This document shows, in pieces, positions 15,459 through 29,893 of a DNA stretch of 64,000 bases (within the stretch, counting starts at the first letter, position 1; each line of letters opens with the position of its first letter). This stretch comes from Haladaptatus caseinilyticus (GTDB taxonomy: Archaea; Halobacteriota; Halobacteria; Halobacteriales; Haladaptataceae). The DNA is taken from NCBI RefSeq assembly GCF_026248685.1, contig NZ_CP111038.1, forward strand, positions 1 through 64,000, in the 5' to 3' direction. Both the position numbers and the translations under genes were made by a program. The notes beneath the pieces were generated by a model. The model had not been told where the DNA came from. It made no database searches and was given only the letters and a program-made list of their open reading frames with translations.

Positions 15459-17840
15459 TCAGGGTTGACCGTCAGTGAATGTTCCCCGAAGATCAACTTG
15501 TGACTCGCGTCTCTGCTCGCTCGGCAGTGGTCGGTGGTCCTCTTCGGGCACCGATTCCTTCGTGGCATCGATAAGTCGCTGATGGGTGCTTCGAACCGGC
15601 TCCCCATCCGCAGGCATGAGTTGTTTGTAGTTCCCATCAGCGTCCATCCGCCAGCGTTTACGGTTGTCCGAGAGCATGATGTCGAGAATCGTTTGTAGGT
15701 TCTCACGGAGGAGAGGATCCTCTACCGGCGCGACTGCTTCGATCCGTCGGTCCAGATTCCGGGTCATCCAGTCGGCCGACCCAATGTAGTAATCCGACTG
15801 CCCTCGATTATGGAAGTAAAAGATACGCGAATGTTCGAGAAACCGGCCAACAACGCTGTAGACAGCAATGTTCTCGCTTACACCCTCGATTCCGGGTCGG
15901 AGCCGACAAATGCCACGAACCAGGAGGTCGATATCGACACCCGCCATCGATGCCTCGTACAGTTCTCTGACCATTTTGGGGTCTTCGAGTGCATTCATCT
16001 TCGCGACGATTCTTGCCTCCGTCCCCTCACGGGCATGTTTGGCCTCCCGTCTGATACGTTGGACAAACTCCTCGCGCATGTTTTCGGGGGCAACGAGTAA
16101 TTTTCGGTACTGCTCGTGCAGCGAGTGGCCCGTGAAGAAGTTAAATAGTTTGACGAGGTCTTGTCCGATATTACGATCCGACGTCAAGAGACCAAGGTCG
16201 GCGTAGGTCTTTGCTGTCTCTGAATGGTAGTTACCTGTGGAAACGTGTGAGTAAAGTTGGACACCGTCGTCCTCCTCCCGGACGACGAGTGTCGTCTTCG
16301 AGTGTGTCTTCAAGCCGATGGTGCCGTACGCCACGTGGATTCCCTCCTCTTCAAGCCGCTTGACCCACCGGAGGTTGTTTTCCTCGTCAAACCGTGCCTT
16401 CAGTTCGACCATCACGGCGACCTGTTTGCCGTTCTTCGCGGCTTCGATAAGACTCTCGATTACCTGTGAGTCTGACGCCGTCCGGTAGATGGCAGCTTTA
16501 ATCGCCAATACTTCCGGGTCGTTGGCCGCCGTGTCGAGGAACTTCTGAACCGTACTCGAGAATGAGTGGTATGGATGGTGGATGAGGACATCCTTCTGGC
16601 GAATCTCCGCAAAGAGCTCTGATGGATGATCCAGAGTAATGTCTGCGAACCGAGGGTGTATCTGTGGCGTCCATGAGTCGAGTTTGAGTTCCGGGCGATT
16701 CAGATCCACTAGGTCGAAGAGGCCGCGGTAGTCGAGATGGCCTTCTAGTTCGAACACTTCGCGTTCGTCGACATCGAGTTGGTTGATGAGGAGTTCACGT
16801 GCCGCTGCAGGCATACTCGACGCGACTTCAAGTCGAACCACGGTCGCGAAGCGTCGCTGTCTGAGGACGTCTTCGATGACTTCGATAAGTCCTTCCGCTA
16901 CTTCCTCGTTCCGCCTGACTTCGGCGTTTCGCGTGACACGAAACAGGGCAGTATCAACAATCTCGACATTCGGGAACAAGAGATCCAGATTCGCCTCGAT
17001 GACCTGTTCAAGTGGGATATAGGTTATATCCTCGTCACTGTTTGCTTCGTCTATACGGCCGTCATCATCGTCTCCGAGTCCATCGAGACGGACGAATCGA
17101 GGACGGTTCTGTGGAATCTTCACTCGGGAGAATTTCAGCGTCTCGTCTGTTGCATCGTTGCGCGTGAGAACTGCCATCGAGAGGCTGAGATTAGAAATAA
17201 ACGGAAACGGATGCGCCGGGTCAAACGTAAGCGGCGTCAGCGTTGGGAGGACGGAACTTTCGAAATACTGCCGTAGTAATTTCTGCTTTTCATATTCGAG
17301 TGTTTCGTGGTCGACGATGTGGATTCCCGCTTCGTCGAGGGCAGGTTTGATATCCTCATGATAGCAGCGATTTTGCATCTCGAACATCTCGTGGGTAGTC
17401 GAGAGGATTTCACGCCACTGCTGATCAGGGGTGCGGCCATCCGGTGTGCGTTCCGACACCCCAGCGGCCATCTGCTGTTTGAGTCCGCCAACACGTTTCA
17501 TGAAGAACTCGTCCATGTTCTGCGTGAAGATCGAGAGGAACTTCACGCGCTCCAGAAGCGGGTTTCGGTCGTCGAGTGCTTCATGAAGTACTCGTCGTTG
17601 GAACGCGAGTTCGCTCAGTTCGCGGTTAAGATAGAACTCCGATGCCTCCAAGTCGACCGCTGTGGCTTGGTCACTGTCGTCCGCTAGCGTTTCGTTAAGT
17701 TCATTGTCGAGATCGGCGTCACTTCCGATGAGAATCTCGTCGACTGCCTCTCGCTCGGCCGGATTTGCTTTTGGGTCATGGCCGTTGGGATGAGCGTTTA
17801 CGTGCTGTGCTGATTCGTCTACGTCTTCATCTGCCGTCAT
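15459..17840 (-). CDS. ppk: Polyphosphate kinase 1
   Basis: A 793-residue PPK1, which reversibly polymerises the gamma-phosphate of ATP into polyphosphate. The N-terminal 65 residues are an acidic haloarchaeal extension; the PPK N-domain follows (FYLNRELSELAFQRRVLHEA, IFTQNMDEFFMKRVGGL), then DVLIHHPYHSF, the catalytic region LKTHSKTTLVVREE with the phosphorylated His, and the second catalytic segment YYIGSADWMTRNLDRRIE. Length and motifs are complete. It lies 39 bases downstream of the PPP-type phosphatase and is probably cotranscribed with it. With the neighbouring secreted phosphatases it suggests uptake and storage of phosphate. Confidence 0.95.
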   Translation of the reverse strand: MTADEDVDESAQHVNAHPNGHDPKANPAEREAVDEILIGSDADLDNELNETLADDSDQATAVDLEASEFYLNRELSELAFQRRVLHEALDDRNPLLERVKFLSIFTQNMDEFFMKRVGGLKQQMAAGVSERTPDGRTPDQQWREILSTTHEMFEMQNRCYHEDIKPALDEAGIHIVDHETLEYEKQKLLRQYFESSVLPTLTPLTFDPAHPFPFISNLSLSMAVLTRNDATDETLKFSRVKIPQNRPRFVRLDGLGDDDDGRIDEANSDEDITYIPLEQVIEANLDLLFPNVEIVDTALFRVTRNAEVRRNEEVAEGLIEVIEDVLRQRRFATVVRLEVASSMPAAARELLINQLDVDEREVFELEGHLDYRGLFDLVDLNRPELKLDSWTPQIHPRFADITLDHPSELFAEIRQKDVLIHHPYHSFSSTVQKFLDTAANDPEVLAIKAAIYRTASDSQVIESLIEAAKNGKQVAVMVELKARFDEENNLRWVKRLEEEGIHVAYGTIGLKTHSKTTLVVREEDDGVQLYSHVSTGNYHSETAKTYADLGLLTSDRNIGQDLVKLFNFFTGHSLHEQYRKLLVAPENMREEFVQRIRREAKHAREGTEARIVAKMNALEDPKMVRELYEASMAGVDIDLLVRGICRLRPGIEGVSENIAVYSVVGRFLEHSRIFYFHNRGQSDYYIGSADWMTRNLDRRIEAVAPVEDPLLRENLQTILDIMLSDNRKRWRMDADGNYKQLMPADGEPVRSTHQRLIDATKESVPEEDHRPLPSEQRRESQVDLRGTFTDGQP

Positions 17841-17879
17841 TTAGTCGGAACTTGCTTGTCGTCTGTTTCGGGGGTTGTG

Positions 17880-18581
17880 CTACACTGGAACGGAGCGGGG
17901 GTTGATGAACTTAGAATCCTTGCGGTGTTGGACCGTCCGGTCGACACCAACGCTGACGAGTTTGCCCTTCCGCCAGTCGTAGGCGGTCAACTCGCCCCCG
18001 TAGACACAGCCAGTGTCGAGGCCGACAGCGTACTCTCTGTGAACGGGTGCTTCAAGGACGGTATGGCCGAAGAAGACGCGCTCGGGACCCTCGTACTTAT
18101 CCCACCAGAACGGTGGGTCGTAGCTTCCATCGGGAACGAGCGAGCGAGTGTTCTGCAGGTCGTCAACCGTGTGGTCTTCGCGGTCCATCTGAGGGTCGAT
18201 CCCACCGTGGACGACAAGCGTGTCTTCCCACGAAATTGCGACTGGAAGGCCACGAATCCACTGGAGGTCTTCTTCGGTCAGATCGTCGACGACTTTGGTT
18301 CCCCGAAGTAGTTTCTCCTCGTTGTTTCCACGAATCGAGAGCATATTCGGTGATGAGCGGACGAGGTCGACAACACCGTGATTGTTGGGACCTTTCCTGA
18401 TGAGATCCCCCACGAACACCACAAGGTCATCCTCGCTTGGGGCCAGTTCATTGAGGAGCGTCTCAAGTTCTGACAGACAGCCGTGGATATCGCCAATGAT
18501 ATAGATGTCGTCCCAGGCGTTGGCATCTACGTGTTGGTGCTGTGCTTCGATAGAATCGTTGAATCGAGGAGTCCGGCTCAT
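17880..18581 (-). CDS. PPP-type metallophosphatase (ApaH/PrpE-like)
   Basis: A 233-residue cytoplasmic phosphoesterase with the full PPP signature: IIGDIHGCLSELETLL, VFVGDLIRKGPNNHGV, IRGNNEEKLL, VVHGGIDP and a C-terminal FFGHTVLE. It is close to diadenosine tetraphosphate hydrolases and small Ser/Thr phosphatases; which of these it is cannot be read. ATG 18581 is preferred over the upstream 18650 because the TATATA element at about 18650 would lie inside the longer frame. It is probably the first gene of an operon with ppk. Confidence 0.88.
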   Translation of the reverse strand: MSRTPRFNDSIEAQHQHVDANAWDDIYIIGDIHGCLSELETLLNELAPSEDDLVVFVGDLIRKGPNNHGVVDLVRSSPNMLSIRGNNEEKLLRGTKVVDDLTEEDLQWIRGLPVAISWEDTLVVHGGIDPQMDREDHTVDDLQNTRSLVPDGSYDPPFWWDKYEGPERVFFGHTVLEAPVHREYAVGLDTGCVYGGELTAYDWRKGKLVSVGVDRTVQHRKDSKFINPRSVPV

Positions 18582-18777
18582 AGAACTGTTCGTAGTAAAA
18601 GTGTGGCCGCTCACGCCAATAAACAACTTGCTAAGTTTGCTACATAGCAATATATAGCCGTAATTGATAAACAGTATCGTGGAATAGAGGTATCAATGTC
18701 GCAACGGCCGATAAAACAATTCGCCCGTAAAAACAAAATCATCGCTTATCGGCTTGTATCCCGGCGATTTCAGCACC

Positions 18778-19878
18778 TCAAGCGCCTTTCTTGTTCGGGT
18801 ACAAATTGAACTTGAATGATTCCTCTTTGTCGTCACTCCACTTGTCGAGATATGGTGAATACGTGGTTATCTCTGCATTGTATGTTTGTGTGTTTACCGT
18901 CAAAAGGCGGAACCAACCATCCCCGCCGTTATCGATCGTTTGGTAATCCATGAACATCTGGGTGGTACGATTGCCTTCTGCATGGGCGGTACGTCGTGCA
19001 ACGTATGAGCCAGTGATATGGTGCCCAGAGTGAACATTCGCTAGATTCTCGTGGTAGCGCAATTCAGATTGCCACATCTGCTCTCCGTTGTTGTAGTTGC
19101 TGCCTTCAGGGAGGCCTCCACCTTCGTACCAGTTCGGGGCGAAGTTGTCGTTCGCATCCGTTCGGGTGCCGTCGTGATATGTGTATGTATGCGTGACGAG
19201 AAACGCGGTCGCTTCAGCATAGGTTTCCAGAAGCTGGCCGGCCCACTTCAACACCGCGTCACGCGGCCCGAACTCCAGCGTGAGGAAGAGAAATTGCTCC
19301 CCATGAATCTCTTGGAGGAAATAGGCGTTTTCGGCATATCCCTCGAACGTCCCCCAGTCAAGGATCGTCTCGTTGCTCTCCTTGGTCTCCTTATAGCGGG
19401 TCGCCGGGAACCGACTGCGAAATGTTTGCGGATCTCGGATATTGTCTGCATCGTGGTTCCCAAGCGACAGCACGGTTGGGATATTCGCGTCGTCCATTCT
19501 GCCGATTGCATCTTGTGCAACATCCCATTCGGCATCGTTGTCTGATCCGTAACTCTGTACGATGTCCCCTTCGTGCAGGAACATCTGGATATTGTACTGC
19601 TCCTTATTATCGGCGACCCATTGACCCATCTGCTCAAAGATGCCATTATCCTGCTGTGCATAGTACTGCGTATCTGGGAAGATTGCAACGCTGAACTCGG
19701 TGCTAGAGTCAACAGTTGGTTCGCTACTCTCACTCGCACGCTGCGCTGCAGTTCGGTGACTTGCCGTGAACCCCAGTCCGCCAAGGCCGCCGACGAACGC
19801 CAGTGTCTGGCGTCGTGTTGCAGACGGTGCGTTCCGCTGATTCGATTCTGCAGCACTCTCTGTGTGAGCTTCTGACAT
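18778..19878 (-). CDS. Secreted calcineurin-like metallophosphoesterase
   Basis: A 366-residue Tat-exported phosphoesterase. The signal reads ATRRQTLAFVGGLGGLGF; the catalytic motifs are IFPDTQYYA, LHEGDIVQ, LSLGNHD, FLVTHTYTYHD and HSGHHITGSY, the standard series of the calcineurin-like fold (PDTQ replaces the usual DxH, as in several extracellular members). It should act outside the cell on organic phosphate. It is divergent from phoX and has the same ATTATAAA promoter word, 41 bases before its ATG. Confidence 0.88.
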   Translation of the reverse strand: MSEAHTESAAESNQRNAPSATRRQTLAFVGGLGGLGFTASHRTAAQRASESSEPTVDSSTEFSVAIFPDTQYYAQQDNGIFEQMGQWVADNKEQYNIQMFLHEGDIVQSYGSDNDAEWDVAQDAIGRMDDANIPTVLSLGNHDADNIRDPQTFRSRFPATRYKETKESNETILDWGTFEGYAENAYFLQEIHGEQFLFLTLEFGPRDAVLKWAGQLLETYAEATAFLVTHTYTYHDGTRTDANDNFAPNWYEGGGLPEGSNYNNGEQMWQSELRYHENLANVHSGHHITGSYVARRTAHAEGNRTTQMFMDYQTIDNGGDGWFRLLTVNTQTYNAEITTYSPYLDKWSDDKEESFKFNLYPNKKGA

Positions 19879-19910
19879 CGATTTCGCAGATGAATGCCCG
19901 TTAGATAGTG

Positions 19911-19921
19911 CTTTATAATAT
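19911..19921 (-). promoter_or_regulatory. TATA-type promoter of secreted phosphoesterase
   Basis: On the minus strand this reads TATTATAAAG, with the ATTATAAA core beginning 41 bases before ATG 19878. It matches the CTATTATAAAC elements in front of phoX and both phoD genes. Confidence 0.6.
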
Positions 19922-20328
19922 TTCTATTTACAAGAAATAATGGTCCGTAGAATGCTGGGTAGCTCGTCCCGTTCCACATCATCGAACGGTTGGCGTTCGA
20001 CGCACAGCAGTACCTTGCGGAACGCGAGGCTGGTACACTTTCATCCAGGGAGAAATACTGTACGGGTGACCCGATTCAGCTCTCGGAAAACCAGCAGGGC
20101 TGGCACGATTTCGTCCCTGCCCGCCCAACGAGATTACTTCTGCTCATCAATATCTCAACCAGTTTGCCTACATTCGCCGGGATTGGGCTTGGAGTTATCC
20201 TCACCAATGTCAATATCGTTGGTGTCAAGCAAGCCGTTTAGTTGCAGGCAGGGATCGTCAGTTTTGTTTTTCTCGTACTCAACCATGATGTCTGTGAGAA
20301 ATAGTGTCACACTGGACGAACCGAGGAT

Positions 20329-20339
20329 CTATTATAAAC
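20329..20339 (+). promoter_or_regulatory. TATA-type promoter of phoX
   Basis: CTATTATAAAC, with ATTATAAAC starting 41 bases before ATG 20372. It supports the ATG at 20372 over the long upstream frame and is shared with the two phoD genes. Confidence 0.65.
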
Positions 20340-20371
20340 GTTCAAGAACGCTTTCTCTCTTTCTTAGTGCG

Positions 20372-22168
20372 ATGTCCGGTGAATATACTCGTCGTGACGC
20401 AATAGCTATCCTAACTGTTTCCGGGTTAGGCGGTATCGCGAGCACCTCCGCGGCCGCTCGTCGCGGGAATGACGACCATGACCATGAGGACGAACAGTCG
20501 CTCAACCGCTTGGCAACCACGGTTCGAGGCGCAGAAATCACCGGGATGTATCTCACACAGCCTGGTCGGTTTTTCTTCAACATCCAACACCCCAGTGATG
20601 CCAATGACAAACCCTATAACAAGGGTACTGTCGGAGCACTCGTCGGAGCGAACCTGCACGCCCTTCCCCAGGATTTTGCAAGCGTACAAGTTCCTGACAA
20701 CAAAGAAGAAGCCGAAACGGTTCACACTGCCGTCGGCCAGTATCAAGCGCTAGCGACCGGCGGCGACGAGACGGATAACGGAAAGAAACTCGGTATCCCG
20801 TACTCCGCAGACGGTGAACCGATGACGGACGGAAATAGTCCCGACTATAACGGATTCATTCCCGGCGACCATCCGAACGAAGGCTATCTCTTTACGAATT
20901 GGGAGACTCGACCCGGGATGGTCAGCCGACTCCACCTTCGAATGCGCGGTCGACAGGGAAAAAGCACGAACCACAAATGGGAGGTTCTCGGGAGCCAGAA
21001 CCTCAACTTCCGTGACGTTGAAGGCACCTGGAACAATTGCTTTGGAACGGTTACGCCGTGGACTACACCACTGACCTCCGAAGAATACGAGCCAAGTGCT
21101 GCTGACTGGTACAATCCAGGCAACGGCGCGCGCGAGCGGATGTCGGAGTACCTCGGCCGGACAGCGAATCCGTATCGGTACGGCTACGTCATCGAAATTG
21201 ATGAACCGACTGGCGATGCAACGCCCGTCAAGCAGTTTGCAATGGGCCGGTTCTCGCACGAGAACGCGGTCGTGATGCCAGACCGACAAACGGTGTACCT
21301 GAGCGACGATGGCACCGGGACGGTCTTTTTCAAGTTCGTGGCAGACACCCCCGGCGATCTCTCCGCCGGGACGCTCTACGCTGCAAAAGCAACTCAAGAC
21401 GCCGGAAACGACGTCGCAACCACTGGGTTCGATCTCGAATGGATCGAACTCGCCCATGGCACGAACGATCAGATTGAATCGTGGATCACCGAGTACGACG
21501 ACCAAGAGCCGGGAACGAATGCCGACTACATCACCGATGAAGAAGTTGCTCGATGGGCACGCGGAAATGCGGACGACGATCGAGCCGCGTTCCTCGAAGC
21601 GCGCAAAGCGGCCGCCGCAAAGGGCGCGACGAACGAATTCCGCAAGATGGAAGGCGTGAACATCAAGCGGAACGCCAAGCCCGGCGACTATCTGTACATG
21701 GCGATGTCGAATACAAACAAAACGATGCTCTCGAACGAGGATGCGCCGGCGAAGCACGACGATCCGCAGGACGAAATCAGACTTGAGGGCAACGAATGGG
21801 GAGCGGTCTATCGCATGCAACTCGGTGCTGACTACAACGTGGGCCGAATGGAGCCGGTCGTGACGGGTGGCCCGAACGCGAATATCTGTGGTGGCTGTCC
21901 GTACGATGCTCGACCTAACTCGGCCAGCACTGTCTGCCAGGACTGTGAACACAACCCTACAAAGGAGGACGAGAGTGGCATGGTCGGAAAAGGAATGCAG
22001 TCGATGAAGCAGGCATTCTCGAGTCAAGAGAGCTATGATCCCGAGAACACGATTTCCGAACCCGACAACATCGTCGTGATGGATGACGGTCGAGTGATCA
22101 TCGGTGAAGACACCGGTAATGAGGGTCACGACCCACCAAACATGATCTGGGTGTACAACCCGAGTTAA
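20372..22168 (+). CDS. phoX: PhoX-type (DUF839) secreted alkaline phosphatase
   Basis: A 598-residue protein with a Tat signal (YTRRDAIAILTVSGLGG) and the DUF839/PhoX fold. Seen are the family segments MGRFSHENAVVMPDRQTVYLSDDGTG split across about residues 290-315, DYLYMAMSNTNKT, a four-Cys cluster (ICGGCPYDARPN, CQDCEHN) and the end motif EPDNIVVMDDGRVIIGEDT. PhoX enzymes are Ca/Fe phosphomonoesterases that release phosphate from organic esters outside the cell. The frame runs open back to 19940, but the promoter at 20329 and the Tat signal fix the start at ATG 20372. Confidence 0.88.
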   Translation: MSGEYTRRDAIAILTVSGLGGIASTSAAARRGNDDHDHEDEQSLNRLATTVRGAEITGMYLTQPGRFFFNIQHPSDANDKPYNKGTVGALVGANLHALPQDFASVQVPDNKEEAETVHTAVGQYQALATGGDETDNGKKLGIPYSADGEPMTDGNSPDYNGFIPGDHPNEGYLFTNWETRPGMVSRLHLRMRGRQGKSTNHKWEVLGSQNLNFRDVEGTWNNCFGTVTPWTTPLTSEEYEPSAADWYNPGNGARERMSEYLGRTANPYRYGYVIEIDEPTGDATPVKQFAMGRFSHENAVVMPDRQTVYLSDDGTGTVFFKFVADTPGDLSAGTLYAAKATQDAGNDVATTGFDLEWIELAHGTNDQIESWITEYDDQEPGTNADYITDEEVARWARGNADDDRAAFLEARKAAAAKGATNEFRKMEGVNIKRNAKPGDYLYMAMSNTNKTMLSNEDAPAKHDDPQDEIRLEGNEWGAVYRMQLGADYNVGRMEPVVTGGPNANICGGCPYDARPNSASTVCQDCEHNPTKEDESGMVGKGMQSMKQAFSSQESYDPENTISEPDNIVVMDDGRVIIGEDTGNEGHDPPNMIWVYNPS

Positions 22169-22476
22169 TCACATAATTGTGAAATATTCTCCGAAACGAT
22201 CACAACACTTATTTGATTTTTTGCAGTAAATAACGATTCGTCATCCGCAAACCTATGTCAATAATTTAATAACAGAGGTACTGCAGCGATAAAATTTTTA
22301 TGAGCGGTCAGATCCTTAGAAACGCTGGCTAACCAAGTATTTTGTCAGTCATAGATTCCTCCGTGGTACTCTTCTGGCACTTCATCATGGTATAATATAT
22401 CAAAAATATAATCACGCATATAGAGATGTATTGCTTAATCTAAACCCTTCTAAACTAGACTCACGTTGATATAGAT

Positions 22477-22487
22477 CTATTATAAAC
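22477..22487 (+). promoter_or_regulatory. TATA-type promoter of phoD copy 1
   Basis: CTATTATAAAC, 45 bases (from ATTATAAAC) before ATG 22525. The downstream leader is clearly related to that of phoD copy 2, including a shared GTAAAATG/GATAAAATG start context. Confidence 0.65.
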
Positions 22488-22524
22488 CTTCATACTTGGT
22501 CGATTGAGCTATTGTGTGCGTAAA

Positions 22525-25089
22525 ATGACAGAACCTGACAATGGAAATAAGATGGATGCCCAACAAACCACCTTTCTTTCTACTAAACGACGCGACTTCC
22601 TGCGCAATGCAACAGGCGTCGCAGGCCTGACCACGTTCGGAACCACTGGCCTCGCCACCGCAAAGAGTGAGGAAGCTGGCCGTTTCGGCGACGATCCCTT
22701 CCAACTCGGCGTTGCCTCCGGTGATCCTCTTCCTGACTCGGTCGTGCTCTGGACGCGCCTTGCTCCGAAACCACTCCAAGCTGATGGGGGCATGCCCGAT
22801 CAAAACATCGAAGTTCAGTGGAAACTCGCAGCGAACAAAAAGAATGGCAAAGTCCAGAATGTCGTCCAAGACGGCACTGTGTATGCCCGCCCAGAACATG
22901 CCCACTCCGTGCACGTTGAACCAGAGGGCTTGGAACCGAACACCGAGTACTACTATCAATTCAAAGTAAGCACCTACCAGAGCCCAATCGGTCGGACGAA
23001 AACCGCACAAGCACCAGGTTCAGCGGTTGACGAACTTAACTTTGCGTTTGCCTCCTGCCAAAACTATCCCTCCGGGTACTACACTTCCCACCAGCACCTT
23101 GCTGAGGAAGACCTTGATGTAGCATTCCACCTCGGCGACTACATCTACGAGGGAGACGCACAGGGTTCTCTTGGTCGTGGCTATAAGCCACCGCATCAAT
23201 GTGAAACCCTGTCTGATTACCGAATCCGTCATGCCCAGCACAAGACGGATCCAAACCTCCAAGACTCACATGCCGCCTTCCCGTGGATCCTCACATGGGA
23301 TGATCACGAAGTCGAGAACAACTACGCTGACGAGGACGACGGTGCGCCCCCTGAAGAGTTTCTCAAGCGACGAGCCGCTGCGTACCAGGCCTACTGGGAG
23401 CACATGCCCCTCCGCCGAAAGCGACGGCCTGACGGCCCGGATCTCCCTCTCTATCGCCGGTTCACTTTCGGTGAAATTGCTGAGTTCAATGTGCTGGACA
23501 CGAGGCAGTATCGCGATGACCAAACCTCGTCGTCCGAGGAAGCAAAAGACCCCGAGCGAACAATCCTCGGCGATGAGCAAGAGCAGTGGCTGCTTGACGG
23601 ATTCGACAGTTCTAGTTCTAAGTGGAATGTCCTAGCAAATCAGGTTCCGTTCGCAGCAAGGGATAACAACTCGGATCCTGACGAAGTAGACTTCGGTGGT
23701 GGCGACAAATGGGATGGCTATCGAGCCGACCGGCAAACCATCTTGGATTCCATGACCGAGCATCCGGATTTGAATCCAATCGTCATTACGGGCGACGTTC
23801 ATCGAAGCTACGTCTATAATCTCAAGTCTGACTTCTCGGATCCCGACTCCCAAACGGTCGGAACTGAATATGTCGGGTCTTCGATTTCCTCGGGTGGCGA
23901 TTCAAGTGGCACGACAACATATGGTGATCGCGAAAACACCCCGTGGCGCAAATTCTACAACAATAACCGCGGGTATGTCCGGTGTACGCTGACGCCCGAG
24001 GAGTGTCGCACTGACTATCGAGTCGTCTCAACCGTCAGAGAGCCGACTGCATCCGTGAATACCATTGCCTCATTCCTTACCGAAGCAGGAAATCCAGGAG
24101 CACAACTCATCACCGCGCAGGTTGACTTCACTGCTCCTGATTCGTATGATTCATCTAGTGGGTCGGCCGAATCGTTTGAAATCACCGCCGCGTTTACCAA
24201 TCCTGCAGGTGCGGACGCCGAGGCAAACACAATGGAGGGTGTCAATCTCGATGTCTCAGGATTCCCAGATGGATGGTCTGTGAAAGCTAATACCGCAACC
24301 CAGTTTGATACCGTTTCAAATGGTGAAACTGTCACCACAAGCTGGAATGTAACCCCTGACGACACACCTGATGGTGACGTGAAACTTGAATTAGAAACAA
24401 CATACGATATCGGGAGCGAAAGCTATCGGCATGTGTTTCAGGAGCAGATGAGTGAGGTTCAGATTGCGTATTGGAAGTTCGAGAATAGTAACGAGGACAG
24501 CTCAAGCTACGATCACACCTTCTCGCTCAGAAACGGTGCCAGATATGACGATCAAGCCGCTGTCGAAGGCGAGTACTCGCTGCAATTGGATGGGACCGAC
24601 GATTACATCCGAACGTCGAGTAGCGATTTTCTCCATGATGCATTCACCGAACGAACAGTATCCATGTGGGTGAAGCCTGATTCGACGGCAGGGACACAAA
24701 GCATCTACGACGAAGGTGGAAGCGCGAACGGCCTGGGGATGCGTATCAAAGACGACACCCTGGAAGCCGGTGTGATTGACAATAGAAACCTAAGCACTAT
24801 CGAAAACCCGTTCACTCGGACGGATTGGGTACACGTTGCTGTGGTGTTTGACACGGGCTCGCTTACACTCTACGTTGACGGAAGTGAAGTAGCATCGAAA
24901 GCGGATGTTGGCTTCGAGAGCGTCTCTTCCCACGGTGACGAAGGCGAAATCGGTCGCTCCGGTGGGAGCTCGTCTCAGGACGTGTGGGATACCACTGGGA
25001 ACTACTTTGGTGGTCACATCGACGCCACATCCATCTATAGTACGGCTCTCTCCGCAGAGAAAATAGCAGAACTGTCAAATAAATACTGA
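22525..25089 (+). CDS. phoD: PhoD-family secreted phosphatase with LamG-like C-terminus
   Basis: An 854-residue Tat-exported phosphodiesterase/alkaline phosphatase. The signal is STKRRDFLRNATGVAGL. The PhoD N-domain (DPFQLGVASGDPLPDSVVLWTR) and the catalytic domain are complete: FASCQNYPSGYY, FHLGDYIYEG, TWDDHEVENNYADE, NVLDTRQYRDDQ and VITGDVHRSYVYNL. After about residue 535 comes an immunoglobulin-like segment (NEW3-type) and then a LamG/concanavalin-like domain (IAYWKFENSNEDSSSYDHTF, WVHVAVVFDTGSLTLYVDGSEV), which may bind glycans or the cell surface. ATG 22525 fits the promoter; an upstream TTG at 22504 also exists. Confidence 0.9.
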   Translation: MTEPDNGNKMDAQQTTFLSTKRRDFLRNATGVAGLTTFGTTGLATAKSEEAGRFGDDPFQLGVASGDPLPDSVVLWTRLAPKPLQADGGMPDQNIEVQWKLAANKKNGKVQNVVQDGTVYARPEHAHSVHVEPEGLEPNTEYYYQFKVSTYQSPIGRTKTAQAPGSAVDELNFAFASCQNYPSGYYTSHQHLAEEDLDVAFHLGDYIYEGDAQGSLGRGYKPPHQCETLSDYRIRHAQHKTDPNLQDSHAAFPWILTWDDHEVENNYADEDDGAPPEEFLKRRAAAYQAYWEHMPLRRKRRPDGPDLPLYRRFTFGEIAEFNVLDTRQYRDDQTSSSEEAKDPERTILGDEQEQWLLDGFDSSSSKWNVLANQVPFAARDNNSDPDEVDFGGGDKWDGYRADRQTILDSMTEHPDLNPIVITGDVHRSYVYNLKSDFSDPDSQTVGTEYVGSSISSGGDSSGTTTYGDRENTPWRKFYNNNRGYVRCTLTPEECRTDYRVVSTVREPTASVNTIASFLTEAGNPGAQLITAQVDFTAPDSYDSSSGSAESFEITAAFTNPAGADAEANTMEGVNLDVSGFPDGWSVKANTATQFDTVSNGETVTTSWNVTPDDTPDGDVKLELETTYDIGSESYRHVFQEQMSEVQIAYWKFENSNEDSSSYDHTFSLRNGARYDDQAAVEGEYSLQLDGTDDYIRTSSSDFLHDAFTERTVSMWVKPDSTAGTQSIYDEGGSANGLGMRIKDDTLEAGVIDNRNLSTIENPFTRTDWVHVAVVFDTGSLTLYVDGSEVASKADVGFESVSSHGDEGEIGRSGGSSSQDVWDTTGNYFGGHIDATSIYSTALSAEKIAELSNKY

Positions 25090-25394
25090 ACTGTTTTATC
25101 TAAATAATCGATTTTTGGAAGAACCGACATAGGAATAAGGCGGGTATTCATTCGTTCGATTGGAATTATTCCCATAATTATATTTTAATTATAAGTATAT
25201 TCATTCCATAGATTTATTGCACTAATTTCCTTTCTACCGTTGATCAACGACACGGTAAAACAACCTTATATGTAAATTGGTAAATAACATCTACAGTAGA
25301 ATTATTTCTTATATAGGTATATGTGATTCTCTTACTACTAAGACGAGAATTTATTTCTCCTATATCCTCGCATTGGAAATACATCCATAGAGCT

Positions 25395-25405
25395 CTATTA
25401 TAAAC
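25395..25405 (+). promoter_or_regulatory. TATA-type promoter of phoD copy 2
   Basis: CTATTATAAAC, 47 bases (from ATTATAAAC) before ATG 25444. It is the third identical 11-mer in the phosphatase cluster. Confidence 0.65.
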
Positions 25406-25443
25406 GCTCATGTTTGGACGATTATGCTCTTCATGCGGATAAA

Positions 25444-27375
25444 ATGGCAGAAACTGACAGTAACAATAAGATGGATGCTCAACAAAACAAACTTTCCTCC
25501 TCTAACCGCCGTGAGTTCCTTCAGACGGCAACGGGTGTGGCCGGGCTGACGACGTTCGGAACGATAGGACTTGCTACAGCGAAAAACGACAACACGGGTC
25601 AATTCAGCGACGATCCGTTCACCCTTGGTGTCGCTTCTGGTGACCCTCTTCCGGACTCGGTTGTCCTTTGGACGCGTCTTGCACCAGAACCACTCCAAGC
25701 TGATGGTGGGATGCCGGACAAGAAAGTTCCAGTCACGTGGAAGGTAGCCACTCGTGAAAACATGCAGCAGGTTGTGAAAGATGGCACGGCGTACGCCCGC
25801 CCGGAACACGCTCATTCTGTCCACGTTGAGCCTGAGGGGCTCGAGCCCAACACCGAGTACTATTATCAATTCCACGTTGGGCAGAACAAGAGTCCAGTCG
25901 GTCGGACAAAGACTGCGCCAGCACCTGACTCGGAGATTGACGAACTCAATTTCGCATTCGCTTCCTGTCAGAACTATCCCTCAGGATACTACACCTCGCA
26001 TCAACACTTGGCCCAGGAAGATCTAGATATGGTCTTCCACCTTGGCGACTATATTTACGAAGGCGGTGCACAGGGTTCATTTGGTCGTGGCCATGAACCA
26101 CCGCGAGAGATCAAGAGTTTAGCTGACTACCGCATTCGACACGCACAGTACAAGTCTGATTCGAACCTCCAAGACGCCCACGCAGCCTTCCCCTGGTTCA
26201 TTACCTGGGACGATCACGAGGTGGCAAATAATTATGCTGACGAGATCGACGAAGGTACTCCGCCCGAAGAGTTCCTTGAACGGCGGGCCGCTGCCTACCA
26301 GGCCTACTGGGAGCACCAACCGATACGCCGCTCGCGGATGCCCGATGGTCCCGACATGCCGCTCTACCGTCGATTTACGTTTGGCCAGCTCGCCGAGTTC
26401 AACGTGCTCGACACTCGGCAGTACCGTGATGACCAGACCCATTCCAGCGAAGAGGCAAAAGATCCTGAACGGACCATTCTCGGTGACGAACAGGAACAGT
26501 GGCTGCTGGATGGGTTTAATGAGTCTGCATCCAAGTGGAACGTCCTTGCGAATCAAGTTCCCGTCGCGGCGACAGACGAAAATGCGGACCCGACCGAAGT
26601 GGACTTTGGTGGTGGTGACAAATGGGACGGATATCGGGCCGATCGGCAAACATTACTTGATGCGATGGCCAATGATGCAGATCTTAATCCGGTTGTTATC
26701 ACTGGCGACGTTCACCGCAACTATGCCTACAATCTCAAAGCCGACTTTTCGAATCCGGATTCCGAAACAGTGGGTACCGAATATGTGGGTACGTCGATCT
26801 CCTCGTTTGGAGATACGTCTGGACTCACTCAGTACGGCCCATCGGCAGGCGAACCCTGGCAACGATTCTATAATGTCGGCCGTGGCTACGTCCGGTGCAC
26901 GCTGACGCCCGAGCAGTGGCAGGCTGACTATCGAGTCGTCTCGACCGTTGAGGAACAGAGCGCAACGATCGACACCCTCGCGTCGTTCGTGACCGAGGCT
27001 GGCAATCCAGGAGCACAGTTAGTCTCTGAACGACCAGAGGAAGAACCCATTGAGATCACTGATATTCGACCAAATCAGGAAGGAGACCTCAACAACGAGT
27101 ACGCCACAGTGAAGAACGAAGGTGATTCGGGGATCGACATGACGGACTTCATCCTCAGCTTCGAAGGCGGACGCGGACAAAACTATACGTTTGGTGATGT
27201 CATCCTTGGAGCAGGCGAGACGATCACTGTCCGGAACGGAAGTGGCGAAGATACTGAATCGACCTTCTATACTGGATGGGACGGTGCAGTCCTGAACAAC
27301 AGTAACCCTGACACAGTGGTCGTTGCCAACGACGAGGGCATCATTCTCGACGAAGAATCCTATCAACCGACCTAA
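25444..27375 (+). CDS. phoD: PhoD-family secreted phosphatase with lamin-tail C-terminus
   Basis: A 643-residue paralogue of the preceding gene: the Tat signal (SSNRRREFLQ-type, SSNRREFLQTATGVAGL), the PhoD domain with the same motifs (FASCQNYPSGYY, FHLGDYIYEG, TWDDHEVANNYADE, VITGDVHRNYAYNL) and even the promoter leader are similar. The tail differs: after about residue 535 it has a lamin-tail domain (EYATVKNEGDSGIDMTDFIL, YTFGDVILGAGETITVRNGS, VVVANDEGIILDEESY) instead of LamG. It would hydrolyse phosphodiesters or monoesters outside the cell. The two genes look like a tandem duplication followed by exchange of the C-terminal module. Confidence 0.9.
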   Translation: MAETDSNNKMDAQQNKLSSSNRREFLQTATGVAGLTTFGTIGLATAKNDNTGQFSDDPFTLGVASGDPLPDSVVLWTRLAPEPLQADGGMPDKKVPVTWKVATRENMQQVVKDGTAYARPEHAHSVHVEPEGLEPNTEYYYQFHVGQNKSPVGRTKTAPAPDSEIDELNFAFASCQNYPSGYYTSHQHLAQEDLDMVFHLGDYIYEGGAQGSFGRGHEPPREIKSLADYRIRHAQYKSDSNLQDAHAAFPWFITWDDHEVANNYADEIDEGTPPEEFLERRAAAYQAYWEHQPIRRSRMPDGPDMPLYRRFTFGQLAEFNVLDTRQYRDDQTHSSEEAKDPERTILGDEQEQWLLDGFNESASKWNVLANQVPVAATDENADPTEVDFGGGDKWDGYRADRQTLLDAMANDADLNPVVITGDVHRNYAYNLKADFSNPDSETVGTEYVGTSISSFGDTSGLTQYGPSAGEPWQRFYNVGRGYVRCTLTPEQWQADYRVVSTVEEQSATIDTLASFVTEAGNPGAQLVSERPEEEPIEITDIRPNQEGDLNNEYATVKNEGDSGIDMTDFILSFEGGRGQNYTFGDVILGAGETITVRNGSGEDTESTFYTGWDGAVLNNSNPDTVVVANDEGIILDEESYQPT

Positions 27376-27616
27376 GATCGATGATAGTCGGTGATTAGAT
27401 TTTTTGATGGATGGGTGGCAGAGTCAGATAGGAATTGCTAGCGAGACTGGCACCTGTAATACTCGAACCTGAGGCCAGCCCCGTACGTGAAGTATTCTTT
27501 AGTCAAAACGAACCTTTGTAATGCAATGGGTTCTCAATTTCATCTTTGTTTATAATTTGCTACTATATATAGATAATATAAAACAGCATATAGTCTTATT
27601 CGAAATATCCACCAGT

Positions 27617-29893
27617 ATGAAGAACAGAGAGTATGTCAACCGACGAAGCGCTCTCAAAGCGATGGCGGCTGCAGGAATTAGCATCTCATCCTTCGGTGGC
27701 AGCTCATCCGGCAAAGAAACATCCAAAAAGCAAAACCTCAAAACATCTGATCAACCACCATTTGACGTCACACCCGCAAAACGTGCGATTGAGCGAATGC
27801 TCGCTACTCAGACTGAGCACAGTAACCAAACCACTCGTGGCAAACAGTACGTTAACCAAATCGACTTCGAAGCGAGACCAACAAAGGACGGAGCCGATTA
27901 TTTCGAAATTGGGGCGCGTGGTAACCGGCCCGTTATCAAAGGCACGAGTCCGGCTGTCCTTCTTACTGGCTTTAATTGGTACCTGAAGTACATCGTCGGC
28001 GCAAATATCACATGGAATGGTGCACAGTTGAATCTCCCAAACAAACTCCCTGCACCGTCACAATCGATTCGCAAAGACGCATCGGTGGACAATCGATTTG
28101 CACTCAACGACACCACCGATGGGTACACTGAACCGTATGAAAACTGGGACTATTGGGAACACGAAATCGATCTCTTAGCACTACATGGGATCAACAAAGT
28201 CCTCGTGTACCCCGGCCAAGAAGCAGTCTACTATCATGCGCTCCAAGAATTCGGTTACAGTGAAACAGAAGTGCGCAACTGGATACCGAATCCGGCGCAT
28301 CAGCCGTGGTGGCTCCTGCAGAATATGTGCTGTTTCGCCAACCCGATCTCCGAGGAACTCATTCAAAAGCGGATTGGACTCGGACAGCAAATCGTCGAAC
28401 GACTCCGTGAATTAGGGATGACACCCGTCTTCCCCGGGTACTACGGAACGGTTCCCCGAGACTTCGACGAGAAACACTCAGATGCACACGTAATTCCGCA
28501 GGGAACGTGGGCAGGTGGATTCGAACGACCAGGATGGTTGGATCCCACAGGCGAGTACTTTTCTGAAGTCGCAGAAGCCTTCTATCGTCACCAATCCGAA
28601 CTGTTTGGCGACACCTCGATGTACAAAATGGACTTACTCCATGAAGGAGGGACAGCTGGCAATGTGGATGTTCGTGCCGCTTCGAAAGCAGTGCAGAAAG
28701 GGCTTCGAGATGCACACCCTGATGCGACCTGGGCGATCCTAGGATGGCGGGACAATCCATTGCCCGAAACGATTGAAGCGGTCGATACGAGCAAGATGCT
28801 CATTCTTGACGGTATCTCGGAGATGTATAGCGATCTGAACCGAGAACAAGAATGGAACGGCACACCATACGCGTTCGGCACTATCTGGAACTTCGGTGGC
28901 AATACGACGATGGGCGCCAACATGGCCGTCTGGAATGAGAAATTCTGGCAGTGGCACACAAAGTCAAATAGTGCGCTCTCGGGGATTGCGATGATGCCAG
29001 AAGCCGTCGACAACAATCCCGTGGCTTTTGAATTCTTTACCGAGTTGGCGTGGCGAGACGAACCTGTCGATTTCGACGATTGGTTCGAGACCTGGACGCG
29101 GTTCCGATATGGTAGCGAGGATGAAGATGCCGTAACAGCATGGCGTGCGCTCGCACAGACAGCATACTCGATGCCGGACAATGGTTCACGAACGATGGCA
29201 CAGGTGGGGCTCTATGGCTCTCGACCGAGTTTCGATACGGTCTCACAGAGATATGACACCGCAGAATTTGCTCGTGCATTTCCTGCCTTACTAAATGTTG
29301 ACCCCGCTCACCGAGACAACAGCGCGTATAGATACGATCTCATGGATGTCACGAGACAAGTACTCTCGAACCGCAGCTTCGACCTGATACCGCGTATCGA
29401 GACCGCGTATAACGAGCAAAATATTGAGCAGTTTCGTGAATACGCTGACCTATGGTTGCGCTACATTGAACTGATGGACGCAGTTGTCTCGACACATGAA
29501 CAGATGCTGCTCGGACCGTGGGTAAAAGATGCGAGGTCGATGGCAAGTAGTGAAGAAGAAGCCGCGCGACTCGAATACGACGCCCGGTCACTCATCACTG
29601 TATGGGGCAATCAGGACGTCGCTTCCGTGCTCCACGATTATGCGAACCGAGAGTGGGCAGGATTGCTTGATGATTTCTATTACAGCCGATGGCAACAATT
29701 CTTCGATGAACGAGAGGCTGCATTGGTTGAGAACCGCAAACCTGACAAGATCGACTGGTACTCATTTGAAAGCAGGTGGGCCCAGAAACAAAACGACTAT
29801 GCGATCGAGCCGACGGGTGACATCCATCAAATTGCCCAGCGCGTACTCGAAGAAATTCGCGATGATCCCTTGCCGTTTGGCAGTGATTGTTGA
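27617..29893 (+). CDS. Secreted GH89-type alpha-N-acetylglucosaminidase
   Basis: A 758-residue protein resembling the NAGLU (glycoside hydrolase 89) family. Recognisable are the N-domain (TSPAVLLTGFNWYLKYIVGA), the barrel with YENWDYWEHEIDLLALHGIN, PGQEAVYYHALQEFG, FPGYYGTVPRDF, YKMDLLHEGG (candidate acid/base Glu, about residue 340), ILDGISEMYS, and IWNFGGNTTMG, plus the helical C-domain. It begins with a Tat-like signal (NRRSALKAMAAAGIS), so it should act outside the cell on terminal alpha-GlcNAc. ATG 27617 follows an AATATAAAAC promoter by about 40 bases; the frame also opens from 27521 but without sense. GH89 is known mainly from animals and bacteria, so an archaeal copy is notable. Confidence 0.82.
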   Translation: MKNREYVNRRSALKAMAAAGISISSFGGSSSGKETSKKQNLKTSDQPPFDVTPAKRAIERMLATQTEHSNQTTRGKQYVNQIDFEARPTKDGADYFEIGARGNRPVIKGTSPAVLLTGFNWYLKYIVGANITWNGAQLNLPNKLPAPSQSIRKDASVDNRFALNDTTDGYTEPYENWDYWEHEIDLLALHGINKVLVYPGQEAVYYHALQEFGYSETEVRNWIPNPAHQPWWLLQNMCCFANPISEELIQKRIGLGQQIVERLRELGMTPVFPGYYGTVPRDFDEKHSDAHVIPQGTWAGGFERPGWLDPTGEYFSEVAEAFYRHQSELFGDTSMYKMDLLHEGGTAGNVDVRAASKAVQKGLRDAHPDATWAILGWRDNPLPETIEAVDTSKMLILDGISEMYSDLNREQEWNGTPYAFGTIWNFGGNTTMGANMAVWNEKFWQWHTKSNSALSGIAMMPEAVDNNPVAFEFFTELAWRDEPVDFDDWFETWTRFRYGSEDEDAVTAWRALAQTAYSMPDNGSRTMAQVGLYGSRPSFDTVSQRYDTAEFARAFPALLNVDPAHRDNSAYRYDLMDVTRQVLSNRSFDLIPRIETAYNEQNIEQFREYADLWLRYIELMDAVVSTHEQMLLGPWVKDARSMASSEEEAARLEYDARSLITVWGNQDVASVLHDYANREWAGLLDDFYYSRWQQFFDEREAALVENRKPDKIDWYSFESRWAQKQNDYAIEPTGDIHQIAQRVLEEIRDDPLPFGSDC

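Follow-up and report, generated by a model that had tools for sequence, protein, structure and literature searches.

We analyzed the first 64 kb (the window) of a 142-kb contig (C3) in the 4.82-Mb genome of Haladaptatus caseinilyticus, a stretch whose close matches are Haladaptatus plasmids. It carries a gene cluster, with names borne out by Pfam (Table 1), that encodes a metallophosphoesterase (MPE), the alkaline phosphatase PhoX, two PhoD-like phosphatases (PhoD1 and PhoD2) and an alpha-N-acetylglucosaminidase-like protein (NAGLU). Each of the four phosphatase genes is preceded by the octamer ATTATAAA, which begins 41 bases before the ATG of MPE (19919 to 19878) and of phoX, 46 bases before that of phoD1 and 47 before that of phoD2. 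The initial annotation had recognized this shared word and its distances, apart from that of phoD1, which it put at 45 (22479 to 22525 gives 46). It was also right that three of the four sites carry a longer word in full: phoX, phoD1 and phoD2 have CTATTATAAAC, unlike the MPE site, which reads ATATTATAAAG. NAGLU, absent from its list, is preceded 42 bases before the ATG by the variant octamer AATATAAA, followed after four bases by CATAT.

The shared word and its flanks

ATTATAAAS occurs five times in the window against 0.41 expected, a number reached in 0 of 100 shuffles; the fifth copy (27548-27556, minus strand), in the interval from phoD2 to NAGLU, precedes no gene. The longer word CTATTATAAAC has four copies in the genome, three in the cluster and one before an amidohydrolase gene, where the rest of the element described below is missing. 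The bare 9-mer was dropped as a marker, as its 30 genomic copies compare with 29 of the reversed word. Five of the 30 precede phosphatase genes, namely MPE, phoX, phoD1, phoD2 and a chromosomal phoD (PF09423; C1:1276162-1277142, minus strand; 47 bases before the ATG), and the others stand before unrelated genes, such as those for DoxX (39 bases) and the amidohydrolase, or before no gene. Because the 9-mer is as common as its reverse and CTATTATAAAC is enriched in the cluster, the information sits in the flanks. According to the initial annotation, a phosphate role would be refuted if the word were equally common before genes unrelated to phosphorus; this holds in part for the bare 9-mer but not for the extended element, which is specific to genes of phosphate acquisition.

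In the 84 unique sites taken together, RTA stands at -8 to -6 from the octamer, a T directly before it (-1), and Y[TA]T[TA] follows at +12; the octamer positions were set by the search itself, while the flanks were free. YWTW at +12 is found at 65 of these sites versus 2 of 25 non-phosphate ATTATAAAS sites of the H. caseinilyticus genome. The consensus is RTA at -8 to -6, T at -1, [AC][TA]TATAA[AG], four bases and Y[TA]T[TA]. Its three blocks lie about 10-11 bp apart, a spacing that would place them on one face of the helix. At MPE, for example, ATA at -8 to -6 and ATTATAAA are followed after four bases by TATCT. The phoX site lacks the upstream RTA and is the weakest in the set. A palindromic reading of the element, judged by eye only, was unconvincing.

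A matrix was built from 61 unique sites of PhoX (27 of 31 loci, Haladaptatus excluded), PstS (30, and 19 of 20) and GDPD (6 of 30) promoters. Under this matrix, trained without Haladaptatus, the four best sites of the window are those of phoD1, NAGLU, phoD2 and MPE (Table 1), and four of the five cluster sites outscore the best site in a 400-kb sample of the genome (16.0); the chromosomal phoD scores 21.8. When the genome's 30 ATTATAAAS sites were ranked by their flanks without the octamer, phoD1, chromosomal phoD, phoD2 and MPE took the top four places and phoX the ninth (Mann-Whitney P=8e-5 for the phosphatase sites). Four Haladaptatus plasmid loci together hold 18 sites with a score of at least 11.5, 14 of which precede PhoX, PhoD, MPE, GDPD, EEP or NAGLU genes. 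Of the remaining four, that at L034 13754 lies before an EEP gene with an apparently late annotated start, and three lie before nothing annotated. The sites of long PhoX, GDPD, EEP and MPE genes in Haladaptatus are 40-42 bases from the start. At loci L032 and L033, phoX is preceded by an octamer identical to that of the window phoX, and the NAGLU element is kept in L032. NAGLU is predicted from its promoter to be co-regulated with the phosphatases.

Adjoining the cluster at 15459-18650 on the minus strand, ppk1 (polyphosphate kinase) and an ApaH/PrpE-like phosphatase gene have no high-scoring element. A search of the class for MPE (242 genomes, E<=1e-60) returned two copies only, both in the H. 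caseinilyticus genome. The second (G000:C7:229205-230302; L324, L347) is 89% identical and has a decayed element, with a score of 6.7, in the same place.

Table 1. Genes of the phosphatase cluster and the elements that precede them
Feature	Coordinates	Strand	Octamer	Pfam match or matrix score
MPE, secreted calcineurin-like metallophosphoesterase, 366 aa	18778..19878	-		PF00149, E=1.3e-6
Element before MPE	19903..19929	-	19919-19912	17.0 (window rank 4)
phoX, alkaline phosphatase, 598 aa	20372..22168	+		PF05787, E=7.6e-39
Element before phoX	20321..20347	+	20331-20338	9.8 (window rank 6)
phoD1, PhoD-like phosphatase with C-terminal NPCBM-associated and LamG-like domains	22525..25089	+		PF09423, E=5.1e-107; PF13385
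Element before phoD1	22469..22495	+	22479-22486	23.1 (window rank 1)
phoD2, PhoD-like phosphatase with lamin-tail domain	25444..27375	+		PF09423, E=5.1e-108
Element before phoD2	25387..25413	+	25397-25404	20.1 (window rank 3)
NAGLU, alpha-N-acetylglucosaminidase-like protein, 758 aa	27617..29893	+		PF05089, E=9.3e-107
Element before NAGLU	27565..27591	+	27575-27582	20.5 (window rank 2)

Distribution of the extended element across Halobacteria

At 31 loci from named genera and metagenome-assembled genomes, the promoters of PhoX orthologues mostly carry ATTATAAA about 42 bases before the ATG, with YTTTA or a relative of it four bases later. The composite pattern TATTATAAA-N4-YTTTA has 67 matches in 391 Halobacteria genomes versus 10 for the reversed pattern. 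By local tblastn, 28 of the 67 precede PstS, 26 PhoX and one GDPD genes, and 12 were left without assignment. Of these 12, one precedes a gene for a solute-binding protein and one a gene for a choice-of-anchor I protein; the remaining ten are as many as the control matches. The octamer begins 41 bases before the ATG in 26 of the 28 PstS matches and 42 bases before it in 24 of the 26 PhoX matches. For the solute-binding protein, encoded behind the composite element at locus L142, the best NCBIfam models, below the cut-off, are 2-aminoethylphosphonate binding or transport proteins.

Gene sets assembled by protein similarity were then compared for an octamer 38-48 bases before a candidate start, either in the strict form ATTATAA[AG] or in a relaxed form that adds AATATAA and CATATAA. 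The strict form was present in 19 of 31 PhoX promoters and the relaxed form in 25. For PstS, whose query was itself taken from a motif match, the figures were 24 and 30 of the 30 best matches, and 9 and 12 of 20 distant ones picked by hand from the listing. The 30 best GDPD matches gave 16 relaxed sites, and 12 PhoD loci gave six strict and seven relaxed, two of these loci (L248 and L258) beginning inside the gene with the promoter out of reach. With several in-frame starts allowed, PhoX matches also fell in other distance windows; with starts fixed, 25 of the 29 relaxed sites within 200 bases sit at 40-49. In the background, the octamer or a variant was found before 1 of 290 open reading frames (ORFs) with a length of 150 aa or more, taken from the twenty 20-kb pieces of the H. 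caseinilyticus genome that make up the 400-kb sample; among 106 ORFs neighbouring the PhoX loci, two had it, both of them GDPD genes. The comparison of strict PhoX sites with the own-genome background gives a Fisher P of 6e-19, calculated with another rule for the start (17 of 31 PhoX loci); given the relatedness of the sequences, this value is optimistic. The initial annotation had proposed a comparison with chromosomal pst promoters: the pstS of H. caseinilyticus itself has only a degenerate site, and most PstS genes in the two similarity sets carry the octamer or a variant.

Non-homologous gene families thus have the element at a fixed distance from the ATG, and it is kept over many genera while the flanking sequences diverge. 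Both observations bear on the idea that the tandem paralogues phoD1 and phoD2 simply had their promoters copied along with them, leaving a similarity of no present function. Their upstream regions do share 78% over 45 aligned bases, and where the two proteins align, 76% of the residues are identical. Since phoX, NAGLU, GDPD and pstS are not phoD paralogues and have the element in the same place, we consider such inherited similarity extremely improbable. The initial annotation's own alternative of a common strong promoter, taken here as a core promoter of secreted or stress genes free of phosphate control, draws on the secreted-type proteins encoded in the window and on the bare word before the DoxX and amidohydrolase genes. 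A general promoter would not be expected to be restricted to one nutrient, and almost none of the other genes sampled has the element (the single ORF in 290), whereas 55 of the 67 composite matches are pstS, phoX or GDPD. This alternative is therefore disfavoured and very unlikely. An element shared by phosphate genes is well supported by these promoter comparisons, and in its extended form it is specific, throughout Halobacteria, to genes of phosphate acquisition.

Another pattern, TATTATAAAYNYWCW, was built from Haladaptatus promoters and was rejected as a marker outside that genus. It matched in 63 of 391 genomes there, with the reversed control also frequent, and the matches at the loci read (L053-L079) mostly lay before other genes or none, the exceptions being GDPD (L054), PhoX (L063 and L064) and an MPE-like gene (L069). 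Within Haladaptatus, a PhoX, PhoD or GDPD gene follows 19 of the 21 matches (control, 3), the pattern having been partly designed on those promoters. In six genomes of genus g10 (L055, L056, L058-L061), TATTATAAATRYTCA lies 46 bases before the gene for a 284-aa membrane protein, which in L056 has no Pfam match. At L044, also in Haladaptatus, TATTATAAACATACA precedes a gene whose product resembles a sulfatase/type I phosphodiesterase.

Position relative to the TATA box

Among 123 background upstream regions of the H. caseinilyticus genome, A+T content peaks at -34 to -26 from the ATG, with no peak at -42 to -35. In the phosphate promoters, A+T blocks lie at about -50 to -47, -42 to -34 and -29 to -24. 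A TATA box would be an A+T box at about -30 to -25 from the transcription start; the usual peak is where leaderless mRNAs would be expected to have it, and the word lies at -42 to -34. According to PMC4983044, 72% of protein-coding transcripts of Haloferax volcanii are leaderless, and the proposed haloarchaeal elements are TTWT for the TATA box and CGAAA for the transcription factor B recognition element (BRE). From the background peak, the leaderless transcripts and TTWT together, we read the last block as the TATA box and ATTATAAA as a regulator site by the BRE. ATTATAAA is probably distinct from the TATA box, which would be a weak one lying a helical turn downstream. Set against that basal promoter, the second block agrees with TTWT and is correctly spaced; what differs is ATTATAAA, a further helical turn upstream, at a position where A+T content does not peak in other genes.

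Alternatively, ATTATAAA, a perfect TATA-like word, would itself be the TATA box and give leaders of about 13 bases, with YTTTA and RTA as regulator contacts around it or parts of a repressor site over it. The second blocks of the window sites are poor (CATAC, CATGT, CAAGA, TATCT), and it is because of this weakness that the alternative keeps a small share of the probability. We nevertheless regard it as unlikely: the background A+T peak falls on the second block, leaderless transcripts predominate in the Haloferax volcanii data of PMC4983044 noted above, and the octamer keeps almost the same distance from the ATG in several families, which is what transcription from the start codon itself would lead one to expect.

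Phosphate control and a candidate regulator

The pst operon on Haloferax plasmids carries TATTATAAACGCATTTTA, with the octamer 41 bases before pstS. ATTATAAA precedes pstS in four Haloferax plasmid records and in Halorientalis and Halorubrum, a seventh record, from Halostagnicola, has ACTATAAA, and the remaining named pstS promoters (14 examined in all) have weak versions or none. The Haloferax operons compared are those of sister species of Haloferax volcanii, on named plasmids; from plasmid location and gene order, we infer that they are orthologues of HVO_A0477-A0480. These Haloferax volcanii genes are induced on phosphate starvation, and the transcript of the sister operon HVO_2375-2378 is leaderless (PMC6560208).

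The element resembles the P-box or pho-box of Halobacterium salinarum in lying in haloarchaeal pst operon promoters; it differs in being present also at phoX, phoD, MPE, GDPD, EEP and NAGLU genes, many of them on plasmids. A box in both pst operons of that species, which we take to be the one named P-box, was reportedly described by Furtwaengler et al. in 2010. Pho-boxes in the two Halobacterium pst promoters are bound by PhoU regulators and are essential for induction (cited in PMC6560208). Judged by promoter context, the element is likely the haloarchaeal phosphate-regulon operator (P-box/pho-box): it occurs in pst promoters, at all 30 near PstS genes, at 12 of the 20 distant ones and on the Haloferax plasmids, and is degenerate at the pstS of H. 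caseinilyticus. In the literature searched, as judged by listings and by passages of PMC6560208, PMC4983044 and PMC13318637, no description of the element for Halobacteria was found, nor any of its consensus across the class, its spacing or the wider regulon; an element of this kind is known in Halobacterium.

An Escherichia coli-type Pho box was ruled out, as its matches in the window (up to three mismatches) are not above chance, with one at 29242-29259, away from promoters, versus 6.4 expected; the initial annotation had likewise seen no obvious PhoB-like site. The bacterial Pho box consists of CTGTCAT-N4-CTGTCAT repeats, and the blocks bound by PhoB/PhoP lie about one helical turn apart, by the core promoter, before pst and phosphatase genes. 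The haloarchaeal element shares this helical-turn spacing and location, but has another sequence and an archaeal promoter served by TATA-binding protein (TBP) and transcription factor B (TFB); PhoB itself was not searched for.

In bacteria, PhoU acts through PhoR/PhoB. PhoU proteins encoded divergently from the pstS of H. caseinilyticus and beside Haladaptatus islands have an N-terminal MazE/AbrB-type domain (PF04014, E 3e-11 to 1.5e-5) in addition to the PhoU domain, and genes of this type adjoin the island or end the pst operon at four of six named island or pst loci. At 30 PstS loci no AbrB-PhoU gene was seen, within flanks of about 1.5 kb that stop before the operon end. An AbrB-PhoU gene stands between MPE and phoX in H. 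pallidirubidus and is missing from the window through a 1,987-bp difference, either a deletion or an insertion; any control of the window genes by such a protein must therefore act in trans. Window positions 19879-20371 and L033 13150-15631 differ cleanly by this length at about window position 20138. The AbrB-PhoU fusion is the likeliest candidate reader of the element, judging by gene neighbourhoods and domain content.

We think it likely that the word forms the core of an operator-promoter with three blocks, which switches phosphate-acquisition genes of Halobacteria on together. The last block would be a weak TATA box at -30 to -25 from the start codon of probably leaderless mRNAs, and the ATTATAAA block would lie one turn upstream, adjoining the BRE position. 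Under phosphate scarcity, a regulator bound there would recruit TBP and TFB, acting by activation rather than by relief of repression, and so turn on secreted phosphatases, phosphodiesterases and the Pst transporter. This regulator would most likely be a haloarchaeal PhoU with the AbrB/MazE-type N-terminal DNA-binding domain. More tentatively, PhoU fused to AbrB/MazE may itself be the DNA-binding regulator of a class-wide regulon, reading the three helically phased blocks upstream of the weak TATA box and controlling chromosomal Pst, mobile plasmid phosphatase islands and alpha-N-acetylglucosaminidase alike. The initial annotation's proposal, an element of a phosphate regulon read by an archaeal regulator and not by PhoB, thus gains support from comparison across the class, with the phosphate response itself a prediction.

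Several points weigh against this interpretation. The window phoX site scores lower than several background sites, the site of the H. caseinilyticus pstS is degenerate (AATAATAG, score 9.6), although it begins 41 bases before the ATG and no other site in its 14 kb scores higher, and the element of the second MPE copy is degenerate as well (6.7). None of the 30 GDPD promoters has the strict ATTATAA[AG], and most GDPD matches come from one genus. The relaxed octamer was defined after the PhoX promoters had been inspected, and many rows are close relatives, so that the counts are not independent events. Of 31 PhoX loci, taken with 3-kb flanks, just one has AbrB-PhoU nearby, and the window has none between MPE and phoX.

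The element provides a testable, fixed-spacing consensus for phosphate control across Halobacteria. Members of the regulon would be predictable from sequence alone, including NAGLU and EEP genes that have no obvious phosphate role, and the AbrB-PhoU fusion points to a candidate sensor and regulator in one protein.

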